From positions 248,001 to 312,000 of the forward strand of contig NZ_JAAAGB010000004.1 of the NCBI RefSeq assembly GCF_010586825.1: a stretch of 64,000 bases of DNA. The letters are read 5' to 3'. The position numbers and the translations under genes are program-made. The notes under the pieces are model-generated. The model saw only the letters and a list, made by a program, of their open reading frames with translations. It was not told the origin of the DNA and made no database searches. This stretch comes from Draconibacterium mangrovi (GTDB lineage: Bacteria; Bacteroidota; Bacteroidia; Bacteroidales; Prolixibacteraceae). Shown piece after piece: positions 35,422 through 39,834 of this stretch (position 1 is its first letter; each line of letters begins with the position of its first letter).

Positions 35422-35742
35422 ATGACAACACTAAATGAAAAAGAGAAACGCGATTTTGCTACGCAAGTAGCAGTAATTACAGAACAAAATGCACAACAGC
35501 TTATCGATGCCGGTTTCGATCCTGCCACCCGGGTAGGTGGTTTACGAAGCAAAATAACCGAAGCCGATGAAGCTGAAGGACGCCAGAAAGATGCACAAGC
35601 GGCGGCACTTGATGCCACCAAAGCTTCTAACGAGGCACTTGCAAGCATGTATGCTGACGCATCAGCTTTCGTAAAATTAATAGAAGGATTGTTAGGGAAA
35701 GACAACAGCCTGGTACGTAAACTGAAACAATTAAGAAGCTGA
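35422..35742 (+). CDS. Small helical protein of unknown function
   Basis: A 106-residue protein with no signal peptide or membrane segment. It is Ala/Glu/Lys-rich and predicted to be almost entirely helical, with heptad-like spacing in the middle (EADEAEGRQKDAQAAALDATKASNEALASMYADA) and a basic C-terminus (LVRKLKQLRS). The phrase QQLIDAGFDPATRVGGLRSKI is its most distinctive part. I do not recognise the family. It precedes the 416-aa gene, separated by a terminator-like hairpin, and the two could form one unit by partial read-through. Confidence 0.72.
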   Translation: MTTLNEKEKRDFATQVAVITEQNAQQLIDAGFDPATRVGGLRSKITEADEAEGRQKDAQAAALDATKASNEALASMYADASAFVKLIEGLLGKDNSLVRKLKQLRS

Positions 35743-35775: not shown

Positions 35776-35815
35776 AAAACCGTGTTGCTTATAAAGCGCA
35801 CGGTTTTCTTTTCCA
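35776..35815 (+). terminator. Terminator or attenuator between the two unrecognised genes
   Basis: AAAACCGTG (35776-35784) pairs with CACGGTTTT (35799-35807), and inside it GCTT pairs with AAGC. TTTTCTTTT covers the 3' end. It lies in front of the ATG at 35830, which argues against an upstream GTG start inside the hairpin. It probably lets only part of the transcription through to the 416-aa gene. Confidence 0.7.
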
Positions 35816-35829
35816 AAAAAACACTAAAA

Positions 35830-37080
35830 ATGGCCCGCAAAAAGAATAACCGAAAGAAAAAGCCTGCACAACAAGCAAATGGCGGTTACAAAAAGTTTAT
35901 CAGAGAGTTATACGATACTTTACGTCTGGCTGGAATAGACCAGATGTGGGACGAAAATACTGATGCTGACAAACATCTGATGTATAGTATGCGAATACGT
36001 ATTCAGAATCCGGTGGCATGCAACGAATTGGTAAGTTCTGCCGAGCTCAAACGAATTGCAATGCAAACTAAAAGATACTATAGAGAGCCCACAGTTGAGC
36101 GAAAGAAGGACAAGTTTTCAGCTTATCAGCTCATGTTACTCTATTGTTATCTTGCTGTTAGGGAACAGGTGATTGCACGAAATCTGGGGAATAAAAACGA
36201 TCCCGTGGTTTTAGAGCGAAGAGAACACAAGAATAAAATGCTGGATCAATTCGGGATAAACTGCATACTTGGTCATTTCAGAATAATGATTCAACTGGGT
36301 AGCCCCGATTATAAATATTTTGGTTTAGCCCTGCGGCATGCTGCAATTTATAAAGAAAACCCAAGTATGGAAATGGTGCCCGATATTTATGGAATTCCGG
36401 CAGAAAAGAAAATAATCTGCCTGGATGGCCATAAACGACCGGCTTATCGTTTAGGGAAACCCGACGGCATGGAGATTTTTACATGGAGCGTTACTGCTGC
36501 CAATATTCTTGGTGACGCTTATACCGGAGATAAGGAAAAACTCGATATTTATATTCAGTCTCATGCTTTGAAACGAATGGCACAACGGTTGGACTTGCTG
36601 AAACGCCCTGCCATAAACTATGCATTGTGGGAAAATACCATTACTATCACCAGCTTCGTTCATCATCGCGGAAAATTACTGTTGCCCGTAAAAATATACG
36701 ACATTAAAATTGGCTATCTGGTAGCCGAGGTGGTCGACGATGTGTTACTGTTTAAAACCTTCCTGTTTATTACCCATAATTTTACGCCCGAAGGCGATAC
36801 TTTGCGCCGCATAACGGGTTTGGGGAAAGAAGATATCAGCTATTGGAAGATCGACCGGCTGAGTACTTTTGTAAACCTCGATACCGGAAAATATCGGGCC
36901 CTAACTGAGTTGTTTGAACAGGCCGGTCTTGCCGATATTTTTCAGTTAAAAGACAAAGATTTTGATGTGGAACAAATGCAGGAAGCCAATCTTGATGGAC
37001 TAATGCGTTATATCCAGCGCGGAAAGAATGCCGACACCATACAAAAGCAGGAATTTGAAGCCCTCTTACAAAACGCCTGA
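35830..37080 (+). CDS. Unrecognised 416-residue protein with basic N-terminus
   Basis: From the ATG at 35830 it has 416 residues; an in-frame GTG at 35782 would start inside a terminator hairpin. The first 12 residues are strongly basic (MARKKNNRKKKP), which suggests nucleic acid or ribosome binding. No signal peptide or membrane helix is seen. The middle holds LDIYIQSHALKRMAQRLDLL, whose HAxxRMxxR pattern recalls small RNase-type toxins, then GKLLLPVKIYDIKIGYLVAEVVDD and FKTFLFITHNFTPEGDTLRRITGL. I do not recognise the family, and the toxin likeness is weak. Immediately downstream is an array of hairpins and a strong terminator. Confidence 0.78.
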   Translation: MARKKNNRKKKPAQQANGGYKKFIRELYDTLRLAGIDQMWDENTDADKHLMYSMRIRIQNPVACNELVSSAELKRIAMQTKRYYREPTVERKKDKFSAYQLMLLYCYLAVREQVIARNLGNKNDPVVLERREHKNKMLDQFGINCILGHFRIMIQLGSPDYKYFGLALRHAAIYKENPSMEMVPDIYGIPAEKKIICLDGHKRPAYRLGKPDGMEIFTWSVTAANILGDAYTGDKEKLDIYIQSHALKRMAQRLDLLKRPAINYALWENTITITSFVHHRGKLLLPVKIYDIKIGYLVAEVVDDVLLFKTFLFITHNFTPEGDTLRRITGLGKEDISYWKIDRLSTFVNLDTGKYRALTELFEQAGLADIFQLKDKDFDVEQMQEANLDGLMRYIQRGKNADTIQKQEFEALLQNA

Positions 37081-37112: not shown

Positions 37113-37364
37113 GGATAGCAACATTCTATCCAACACCGGCAAACCCATAGCCCTGTTTTTTGCCCCGAAAAACAGGGAGATGTAATACATCTTTTCGGAT
37201 ATTGCCTCAAAAAACAAGGATAGCAACATCCTATCCATAGCTGGTAACACTAAATCCTTGGATATCGACACCATATCCAAGGATGCGCTTTAAAAAAGAG
37301 GGCTGGAGACATTCTGGCTTTGGATATTATCATCCTATCCAAGAATATCATCGCCATATCTTGG
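37113..37364. repeat. Array of about five related hairpins (GGATA/TATCC stems)
   Basis: Inverted repeats lie at 37113-37118/37126-37131, 37218-37223/37231-37236, 37254-37265/37273-37284 (perfect 12 bp), 37320-37326/37336-37342 and 37339-37348/37356-37364 (one bulge). Four have 7-nt loops and one has 9. All share GGATA/TATCC, and the first two also share the loop CAACAT(T/C) in a longer direct repeat about 105 bp apart. Nothing in it looks coding. See findings. Confidence 0.8.
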
Positions 37365-37486
37365 GATATGGTGGCTGTAGCTATTGATTTTATTGGGTTT
37401 TGGAGGTGAATAGTCATGGAGGATACTTCTTTGAGTATCACTGTCGACTGTTGCGCTTTTGTTTGAAAAAATATAGAATAGGAAAT

Positions 37487-37520
37487 AGGATGTCATCTTT
37501 CAAAAAGATGACATCCTTTT
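37487..37520 (+). terminator. Strong terminator after the hairpin array
   Basis: Arms 37487-37500 and 37504-37517 are perfect 14-bp complements around a 3-nt loop, followed by four T. It would end a plus-strand transcript coming from the 416-aa gene through the hairpin array. Confidence 0.85.
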
Positions 37521-37538: not shown

Positions 37539-37571
37539 AAAAAAGCAGGTCCGAAACCGAACCTGCTTTTT
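37539..37571 (-). terminator. Terminator of rho
   Basis: GCAGGT (37545-37550) and ACCTGC (37561-37566) form the stem, with A/T pairs extending it and a T-run on the minus strand (37539-37544). It lies 22 bp after the rho stop codon and can also work in the plus direction. Confidence 0.8.
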
Positions 37572-37592: not shown

Positions 37593-39497
37593 CTATCCAT
37601 CGTTCATCGATGCAAGGAATTCTTCGATACTTGCTGTACGCATCAATCTCGTTTTCATAAACTCCATTGCTTCCAAGGCGTTCATATCGCCAAGGTAGTT
37701 GCGCAAAATCCAAAGTTTGTCGAGAACTTCTTTCGAGAATAAAAGGTCTTCGCGACGGGTACTCGATGTTGGAATATCCACAGAAGGGAAAATACGTTTG
37801 TTCGACAATTTTCGGTCGAGTTGCAGCTCCATGTTACCTGTACCTTTAAACTCTTCAAAAATAACCTCGTCCATTTTCGATCCGGTTTCGGTAAGTGCCG
37901 TTGCCATAATCGTTAATGAACCACCTTCTTCAATGTTTCGTGCCGCACCAAAGAAACGTTTTGGTTTATGCAGTGCGTTGGCGTCAACACCACCCGAAAG
38001 TACTTTACCCGATGCCGGTTGAACAGTGTTATATGCACGGGCCAAACGTGTAATCGAGTCTAGCAGGATAACCACATCGTGGCCACATTCAGTTAAACGT
38101 TTTGCTTTTTCCAGTACAATATTTGCCACTTTTACGTGTTTGTCAGCCGGCTCATCAAAAGTTGATGCAATTACTTCGGCATGTACGCTGCGTGCCATAT
38201 CAGTAACCTCTTCCGGACGTTCGTCGATCAATAACACGATCATATAAACTTCAGGGTGGTTGGCTGCAATGGCGTTGGCAATCTCTTTTAATAATACGGT
38301 TTTACCGGTTTTTGGTTGGGCAACAATCAAACCACGCTGCCCTTTACCAATTGGCGCAAACATATCAACCACACGTGTTGAAATATTGTCGTGCCCATTT
38401 CCGGTAAGGTTGAATTTCTCATCGGGGAATAAAGGAGTCAGGTGATCGAAAGGTACGCGGTCGCGAATATATTCCGGGCTACGTCCGTTAATCTCCAGTA
38501 CTTTAATCAATGGGAAATATTTTTCACCTTCTTTTGGCGGGCGAACTGTTCCTTTTACGGTATCGCCGGTTTTTAAACCAAAAAGTTTAATCTGCGACTG
38601 CGATACATAAATATCGTCGGGCGAGTTCAAATAATTGAAATCCGATGAACGTAAGAAACCATAACCGTCGGCCAAAATCTCCAGTACGCCGGTGTTGGTA
38701 ATAATACCTTCAAACTCGAACTGACGTTGTTTTTGGCGATTTCCTTGCTGCTGACCTTGTTGTTGACCTTGCTGCTGGCTTTGTTGTTGACCTTGCTGCT
38801 GGTTTCTGTTCTGCGGTCTTTGACGGTCTTCTTTTCCGCCGGTATTTTGTCTTGGCTGATTCTGCTGATTTTGTTGATGTCTTTGCTGACCACCACGTTG
38901 TTGCGGTTGCTCTTTAGCTTGTGGAGCCTTAACTTCAGGTTTTTGTTGCTCTTGATTCTTTTCCTGAGCTTGTGGTTTATCCTGAGCTTTCGGTTTATCC
39001 TGAGTTTGTGGTTTTTGCTGTTGTTGCTGAGGAGCTGATATTGTTTCCTCCGGTTTGGCAGCTGCTTCAATATTTTGTTGCTTTGGTGCTGCAGCAGATT
39101 TATCCTTGGTAAAACCTTTTATTATGGCTTTTATCTGGTCCTGACGCGTTTGAACTTTATCGTCAATTTTGTCGCCATGTTTCTTTTTCGGACCTGATCC
39201 CACTTTTTCACGTTTTACAGTCTCCACTCTTTGGCGAGGACGTTTTGAACGGCGTGGTTCATCGTCATCCTGAGTGATTCTGTCGGATTGATTTTTACGA
39301 TTACCGGCTCCTCCTTTTTCATCTTTAGGAGCATTCTTTGGGCCTTTGTTTTCAGCTTCAAGAACAGCCTGGGTATCTAAAATTTTATAAATAAGATCCT
39401 GTTTCTTGTAGGATTCTACACGTTTAATATTGAGATCTTTAGCGATCTCTTTTAATTCAGGAACAAGTTTCTTGTTCAGTTCTAAAATATCATACAT
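37593..39497 (-). CDS. rho: Transcription termination factor Rho with Q/N-rich insertion
   Basis: A 634-residue protein from the ATG at 39497, which places the Rho N-terminal helical domain ([22 protein letters not shown]) right at the start. Order: Rho_N (1-40), a charged linker, a low-complexity Q/N/K-rich segment (about 146-259), the cold-shock-like RNA-binding domain (about 260-345, [19 protein letters not shown]), then the RecA-like ATPase with P-loop AQPKTGKT (393-400) and the [11 protein letters not shown] segment. It is the hexameric helicase that ends transcription. The insertion makes it far longer than E. coli Rho (419 residues). Such disordered segments are known in gut Bacteroides Rho and drive condensate formation. 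Confidence 0.97.
38744..38802 (-). repeat. 12-bp tandem repeat inside rho
   Basis: Nearly five copies of a 12-bp unit alternate between CTTGCTGCTGAC and CTTGTTGTTGAC, encoding repeated QQGQ/QQSQ on the minus strand. The repeat makes the length of the disordered segment prone to change by slippage. Confidence 0.85.
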
Positions 39498-39834
39498 TAT
39501 ACTATTGTTATAACTTTTCTCGATTAATAATTGTTGAAAAAATTCTTGGAACAATTGACGAGGAGGGTGATTTTCTTTTGAAATCGTGTGCAAGTATAAA
39601 TAAATACCTGCTTGTAAACAAAAAATTGAAACTCTTTTTTCTTCCTCTTTCTTATTTTTAAGTAAAATTAAAACTTTTGGTTCGTTCGTAAAAATATATT
39701 TCCAAAAAATGATTCAATTTGCTCAGTAGAAAGTTCTGATTGTAAATACTATACGTTTAAGACAGCTAAATTGTTTAATTTTATTTAAAGGAGTTTTTTT
39801 TAGTGGTTTATAATGTGGCCGAAAATCGAGGTTA
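39498..39834. other. Leader region of rho
   Basis: A 337-bp A/T-rich noncoding stretch between the rho start and the end of the methyltransferase gene. An imperfect minus-strand -7 box (TATACTTG) is near 39591-39598. No terminator-like hairpin was found. A long leader would fit self-control of rho by its own termination, but no direct sign is seen. Confidence 0.4.

Follow-up and report, generated by a model that had tools for sequence, protein, structure and literature searches.

Arrays of 21-bp dyad units behind copies of a small-protein gene in Prolixibacteraceae

In this bacterial family, most copies of a gene encoding a 106-aa protein are followed by a tandem array of 21-bp units. The units mostly have 5-bp arms of the form N3-CC / GG-N3', and each array carries an arm sequence of its own. 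One such array lies in a 64,000-nucleotide stretch of the Draconibacterium mangrovi genome (hereafter, the window), where it had been described from the sequence as a group of related hairpins with a shared GGATA/TATCC core.

The array in the window

The features of the window that concern the array are given below; the array and its units have no assigned strand.

35422..35742, plus strand: gene for the 106-aa protein, predicted to be all-helical, of a family without assignment; it precedes 21-bp arrays in relatives
35830..37080, plus strand: gene that separates the array from the 106-aa gene, here and in G029; start picked by eye, with 432 aa if it is the GTG at 35782 and 416 aa if it is the ATG at 35830
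37113..37382, no strand: array of 21-bp units of the GGATA-N9-TATCC-NN family, about 13 units, with a single -1 step between 37260 and 37322
37113..37131, no strand: array unit with 6-bp arms and a 7-nt loop
37146..37182, no strand: array unit with 15-nt arms CCCTGTTTTT/AAAAACAGGG, 87% complementary, and a 7-nt loop
37218..37236, no strand: array unit with 6-bp arms and a 7-nt loop, 105 bp (5 x 21) from the unit at 37113
37254..37284, no strand: array unit with perfect 12-bp arms and a 7-nt loop
37322..37382, no strand: final three array units (37322, 37343 and 37364), with progressively more degenerate arms

The inverted repeats originally noticed between 37113 and 37364 are real. Four of them (37113, 37146, 37218 and 37254) have 7-nt loops, among them the perfect 12-bp stem, and the common core is present again at 37322 and, more weakly, at 37343 and 37364. 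The consensus unit reads N-GGATA-N9-TATCC-N. The highest autocorrelations of this stretch were at 104, 21, 42, 105, 83, 125, 63 and 62, each a multiple of 21 or one less than such a multiple, and the unit starts were 21, 42 and 105 apart, with one further step of 62. The hairpins are therefore units of a single tandem array on a 21-bp lattice, and their spacing, which had been called irregular, follows that lattice with rare -1 steps. A direct repeat of about 40 bp at a distance of about 105 bp had also been proposed; two similar units do lie that far apart, but they are two alike stretches of the lattice, and a repeat finder gave no direct family. CRISPR had been excluded earlier; the array consists of contiguous, diverged 21-mers rather than near-identical repeats with unique spacers. 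The unit at 37146..37182 lies inside a block that is well preserved across six related arrays, and an extra unit match was seen at 36997, 116 bp ahead of the array and within the upstream gene.

That the arrangement is not due to chance was borne out by a scan for 21-bp periodicity, using thresholds fixed after a first look at the gene-array loci: when the 64 kb was cut into 181 overlapping windows of 700 bp, the one bearing the array was the only one to pass, and none of 114 control windows did. The same genome carries another copy elsewhere, with 80% identity over 285 bp; the original prediction had advised counting copies in the genome.

The array sits between the gene ending at 37080 and a convergent rho gene (37593-39593, minus strand). 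Beyond it, a hairpin at 37487-37517 (14-bp stem, 3-nt loop) and another at 37540-37571 (14-nt arms, 93% complementary, 4 nt between them) are perhaps terminators for the convergent genes. The array itself is very probably non-coding.

The 432-aa gene was considered as a fixed partner of the array and rejected, having a homologue in 29 of 199 genomes and in 4 of 28 context loci. Its homologues were mostly away from arrays, many of them aligning over residues about 190-400, and the protein had no Pfam or NCBIfam match above cut-off. The gene is probably a passenger, and it separates the 106-aa gene from the window array, which is a partly degenerate member of the GGATA type.

The 106-aa gene and the arrays downstream of it

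Across 199 genomes, among them that of the window, the 106-aa gene occurs 52 times, in 30 genomes; the copy in G012 is broken. Among the 50 copies with enough downstream sequence, 40 had a 21-bp array within 700 bp downstream. A further six (window, G029, G012, G003, G006 and G002) had a periodic stretch 1-2.2 kb downstream, beyond other genes, giving 46 of 50 within 3 kb, although many of these loci are orthologous and hence not independent cases. The other four copies (L070, L054, L078 and L064, a partial gene) had no periodic stretch in the available downstream sequence, with weak periodicity in L070 and L054. In type III toxin-antitoxin systems, RNA repeats stand directly upstream of the toxin gene; the arrays here are downstream, and the 400 bp upstream of the 106-aa gene held a 21-bp periodic stretch in none of the 52 places.

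At six loci (L148, L157, L159, L161 and the window among them), the gap between gene and array is filled by other genes, as if taking cargo:

Window and G029: gene of the 432-aa family
G003: Y1_Tnp transposase gene
G006: DUF559 genes
G012: GyrI-like gene, among others
G002: gene for a protein without a Pfam match

A terminator-like hairpin occurred within 200 bp after the 106-aa gene in 25 of 50 loci, compared to 3 of 49 control stretches, and in 22 loci it stands before the array. Searches of the 106-aa protein against Pfam, NCBIfam, PHROG and PADLOC gave nothing at cut-off or with a convincing E-value, and no recognised DNA-binding domain was found in the protein; PADLOC gave no match for the two genes upstream of the window array. 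A single-sequence structure model, which is weak (pLDDT 80, pTM 0.32), showed three helices and had no match among PDB folds above threshold. Four weak matches from a PDB sequence search, the best of which (E 0.0018) aligned 30 residues with a lysozyme entry, and a Pfam OspD match in one of 15 family members (E 0.00055) were taken as chance.

Five paralogues in G001 have different array cores. Clades of the 106-aa protein tend to retain their own core, as labelled by eye, and the GGATA core recurs at four places in the protein tree. The window's genome has a second paralogue (G000 contig C24 near 274335, locus L086) with an AACC-NN-GGTT array, which precedes an open frame resembling dTDP-glucose dehydratase (named by eye).

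Arrays also occur apart from the gene. At 14 other array loci, some of them mutually orthologous, the 6-9 kb fetched contained no 106-aa gene, and G015, G024, G030 and G031 carry arrays or remnants yet gave no match to the gene. A simple gene-array pair is disfavoured by these 14 loci and four genomes. The original prediction had reserved the term generic repeat family for units scattered without link to the adjacent gene pair. This applies in part: the family is linked to the 106-aa gene and not to the 432-aa gene, and there are arrays with no 106-aa gene nearby. Other neighbour families were rejected as partners: the two commonest occurred in 5 of 28 loci each, and one of these was the 106-aa gene read antisense.

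Sampling 394 further genomes across the phylum turned up no member of the 106-aa gene family. The array family is restricted to a lineage. Counting that of the window, 10 of 101 genomes had matches in a DNA search with the array. A two-unit pattern allowing one mismatch matched in at least 40 of 199 genomes, mostly as single hits that are probably chance; among the genomes other than G131, G136 and G148, clusters of hits were arrays in G000, G005, G007, G010, G013, G015, G030, G031, G035 and G117. A strict pattern scan of one genome per species (84,980 species, a collection from which genomes close to the window may be missing) returned seven stretches: one each in Draconibacterium aestuarii, Carboxylicivirga linearis and Mangrovibacterium lignilyticum, two in Maribellus maritimus, one in a Prolixibacteraceae MAG and one in a Bacteroidales metagenome-assembled genome. 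D. aestuarii and M. lignilyticum belong to the Prolixibacteraceae and Carboxylicivirga to the Marinilabiliaceae, all within the Marinilabiliales. Phage and plasmid records had no DNA match to the arrays.

Layout of the units and conservation of the arms

Layouts were compared in 41 arrays, those of the 50 loci with a window score of at least 0.55; relative to the 40 loci above, L054 and L070 are included and L085 is not. They fall into 27 clades, drawn by hand on the protein tree. Each array was taken as the best 11-unit window at period 21, which biases unit counts and spacings to the lattice, and under this detection 386 of 388 neighbouring spacings were exact multiples of 21 and the other two were -1 steps. 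GGATA arrays detected without an imposed lattice also showed multiples of 21 with rare -1 steps; L046, which was off the lattice in that survey, is not a GGATA array.

The cores include TATCC-NN-GGATA, TTACC-NN-GGTAA, GTACC-NN-GGTAC, AACC-NN-GGTT, CCCC-NN-GGGG, TGACC-NN-GGTCA and others. Of these 41 arrays, 28 share the layout N3-CC-NN-GG-N3' with a 9-bp spacer (a CC-NN-GG score of at least 2.5 of 4). The other 13 fit CC-NN-GG less well, and the AAGAT type, L061 and L065 barely fit.

Changes in the stems had been thought to be compensated, and a test for co-varying base pairs had been recommended. Between arrays of different loci, this held strongly: 39 of 48 flanking pairs were complementary, compared to 19.3 with shuffled partners, and none of 10,000 shuffles reached that number. 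The centre was set by the CC..GG columns alone, and three flanking pairs were taken from each of 16 clade representatives, omitting the 13 arrays that scored below 2.5 of 4 on CC..GG and further members of each clade. Judged by this sequence comparison, the arms co-vary between arrays of different loci. Complementarity stopped after the third flanking pair, the fourth to sixth giving no signal, so the dyad would consist of 12 bp with a 9-bp spacer.

The five hairpins of the window, in contrast, gave no strong evidence of compensation. Arm pairing among 187 distinct GGATA-family units was above shuffles (z 4.45), but within two unit classes taken separately z was 1.1 and 1.0. The result for six related arrays was marginal, with 75.0% paired compared to 73.4% in shuffles, 19 of 500 of which reached the observed value. 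Between the arms of single units inside arrays, compensation gave a weak signal across the spacer, with z 2.0, and a negative one, with z −2.95, across the CC-NN-GG centre, so either dyad centre may be the one that matters.

Four orthologous CCCC-NN-GGGG arrays could be matched one to one by unit. Their varying columns numbered 10 of 96 in the arms, 12 of 24 in the centre, 40 of 141 in the spacer and 178 of 275 outside. In a third ortholog set, none of 30 arm columns varied compared to 11 of 72 in the spacer. In the AACC/GGTT set, 23 of 56 arm columns varied, a share below that of the spacer (56 of 86) and above that of the flanks (77 of 318). The orthologous solo arrays of G010 (arms 2 of 100, spacer 4 of 90, outside 1 of 95) and G031 (arms 6 of 70, spacer 4 of 63, outside 14 of 137) showed no clear arm constraint, the differences being too few to tell.

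The two strands behaved alike. Arm mismatches in the 41 arrays were G-T in 69 cases and A-C in 75, and in GGATA units 76 and 70, respectively. Fold energies compared to dinucleotide shuffles gave a mean z over the 41 arrays of −4.04 in the sense and −4.07 in the antisense direction, and the window array gave −4.8 and −4.9. Constant arms against a free centre, together with this symmetry, suggest that what is kept is a DNA structure, either the duplex or a hairpin.

What the arrays may be

With moderate confidence, we read the array as dyad DNA sites in a row, to which a dimeric protein would bind. This reading is based on the gene link, the 21-bp lattice, the co-variation of arms between loci, the little-varying arms of the CCCC-NN-GGGG orthologues, the strand symmetry, the non-coding character, the terminator-like hairpins after the gene and the differing cores of the G001 paralogues. 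With one site per two helical turns, all sites would fall on one face of the helix, the phase being derived from 10.5 bp per turn. A dimeric protein would bind the sites side by side, recognising the arms of its own array; candidates for the binder are the 106-aa protein or another protein. Plasmid iteron, operator and centromere arrays likewise lie next to a gene and repeat their sites roughly every two helical turns, and row binding there coats or bends the DNA, as a row-bound protein might do to the array stretch. The present arrays share with these the tandem sites at helical phase, here a 21-bp lattice with dyads. Unlike plasmid iterons and centromeres, they lie on large genome contigs and downstream of the gene, and the 106-aa protein matches no replication or partition family above cut-off. 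The dyad-site reading is weakened by the solo arrays without the gene and by the weak compensation within arrays; the 13 poor fits to CC-NN-GG, the AACC/GGTT arms that vary more than their flanks, the solo arrays of G010 and G031 with no clear arm constraint, a 106-aa protein with no recognised DNA-binding domain and, by a weak model, no PDB fold match, and the recurrence of GGATA in the tree also count against it.

As a more tentative extension, the small helical protein and the dyad array behind its gene could form a cognate two-part chromosomal module, whose paralogues would have mutually different recognition sequences, making the arrays orthogonal and self-labelling. Such a module may serve domain organisation, regulation or defence, or may offer a slot for cargo genes, an idea that stems from the six loci with other genes between gene and array. 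If the sites are cognate, a single design carries many recognition sequences, and the code between protein (or array user) and DNA would be testable by array swapping. If they are not, these are unusually clear palindromic minisatellites, linked to a gene and keeping their symmetry while their sequence shifts. A mechanism is needed either way.

The original prediction had suggested an RNA or cruciform function, and the cruciform or single-stranded DNA part of it stays as a rival, though we consider it unlikely. Here the units would extrude as DNA hairpins, either as cruciforms or as single strands during replication or transfer, and be recognised by shape, with the arm sequence free and the symmetry kept. 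This would suit arms that differ between arrays while symmetry persists, the lack of strand preference, and the slight within-array compensation, which lies across the 9-nt spacer, where a hairpin would need it. In G003, the gene that separates the array from the 106-aa gene encodes a transposase of the Y1_Tnp family, which acts on DNA hairpins. However, shape alone leaves the retention of CC-NN-GG in 28 of 41 arrays unaccounted for and has no need of a strict 21-bp lattice, and 5-bp arms are short for extrusion.

We also think it improbable that the arrays are minisatellites without a function of their own, in which slippage expands palindromic seeds and template switching keeps the arms alike, as in quasi-palindrome correction. 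The number of units does change between copies in steps of 21, the signals within arrays are weak, and remnants occur at a response-regulator locus, where one species has the full array and two have the last units alone. Against this stand the linkage to one gene family, the same layout under different cores, and the CCCC-NN-GGGG orthologues, which are conserved unit by unit with constant arms. Upstream of the response-regulator gene in L148 (G012), the array's place is taken by sequence with a stretch resembling a tRNA T-arm (GGTGCGAATCCC; noted by eye).

Dispersed REP, BIME and REPIN elements are short intergenic palindromic units near gene ends and resemble the arrays in this respect; the arrays, in contrast, have about 11 or more units, a fixed lattice and different cores. 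A literature search, with most subscription papers outside its reach, found no account of such arrays. The closest described element is BrickBuilt of Porphyromonas gingivalis, a minisatellite-MITE of 23-nt intergenic tandem repeats with a leader and a tail in several non-identical copies (PMC4596501). In favour of the minisatellite reading, it shows that a Bacteroidales genome can carry intergenic minisatellites inside MITEs, with a similar unit length. BrickBuilt has varied neighbour genes and IS5-like terminal inverted repeats, whereas the arrays here have 21-bp rather than 23-nt units, are gene-linked and have locus-specific dyad cores.

A transcribed array of RNA hairpins, each unit with a 5-bp stem and a 9-nt loop bound by protein, is distinctly improbable. 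The fold energies are far under those of dinucleotide shuffles (mean z −4.0 over the 41 arrays), but the antisense strand folds equally well, G-U pairs are not in excess over A-C, the array is past a terminator-like hairpin in 22 loci, and Rfam gave no match in the 64-kb window at gathering scores. RNA hairpins were rejected on this lack of strand preference, and the RNA half of the earlier suggestion is thus unsupported.

Very improbable, finally, is that the arrays are remains of a heptad-repeat protein (21 bp being 7 codons, with xDIxxIS in GGATA arrays). In its favour, open frames reach about 130 codons in some copies when flanks are counted, at least one is present in 24 of 41 arrays, three of four pairs show a slight third-position substitution excess, and mean stops are slightly below within-column shuffles (0.68 compared to 0.85 in the best frame, 20.5 compared to 23.2 over six frames). 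Against it, 17 of 41 arrays lack an open frame, none of the 41 has fewer stops than 95% of such shuffles, GGATA arrays are open and read as heptads on both strands, and the dyad symmetry is left unexplained. Coding heptads were rejected, with the open frames following largely from the base composition of the units. PARCELs (palindromic amphipathic repeat coding elements) are coding repeats of 25 residues (75 nt) and resemble the arrays as tandem repeats with dyad-symmetric DNA (PMC2996958). The present units differ from that description in being 21 bp long, without clear avoidance of stops and very probably non-coding.

Some sequences recur at the array ends. A right-end motif, GCTGAAAG, followed 16 of the 41 arrays with at most one mismatch, compared to one occurrence in a control stretch further on, and was also seen in G030 (L201), where no array is visible. 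A common motif, GCTGAAAGGCTTGTGGATAAAGGG, stands behind arrays of differing cores, for example at the right ends of L058, L073 and L050. The similar short motifs AAGGGTTTCACGCGGCAGA and AAGGGATTCGCGCGGCAGA flank two arrays, just before position 4170 in L147 and after the array in G013.
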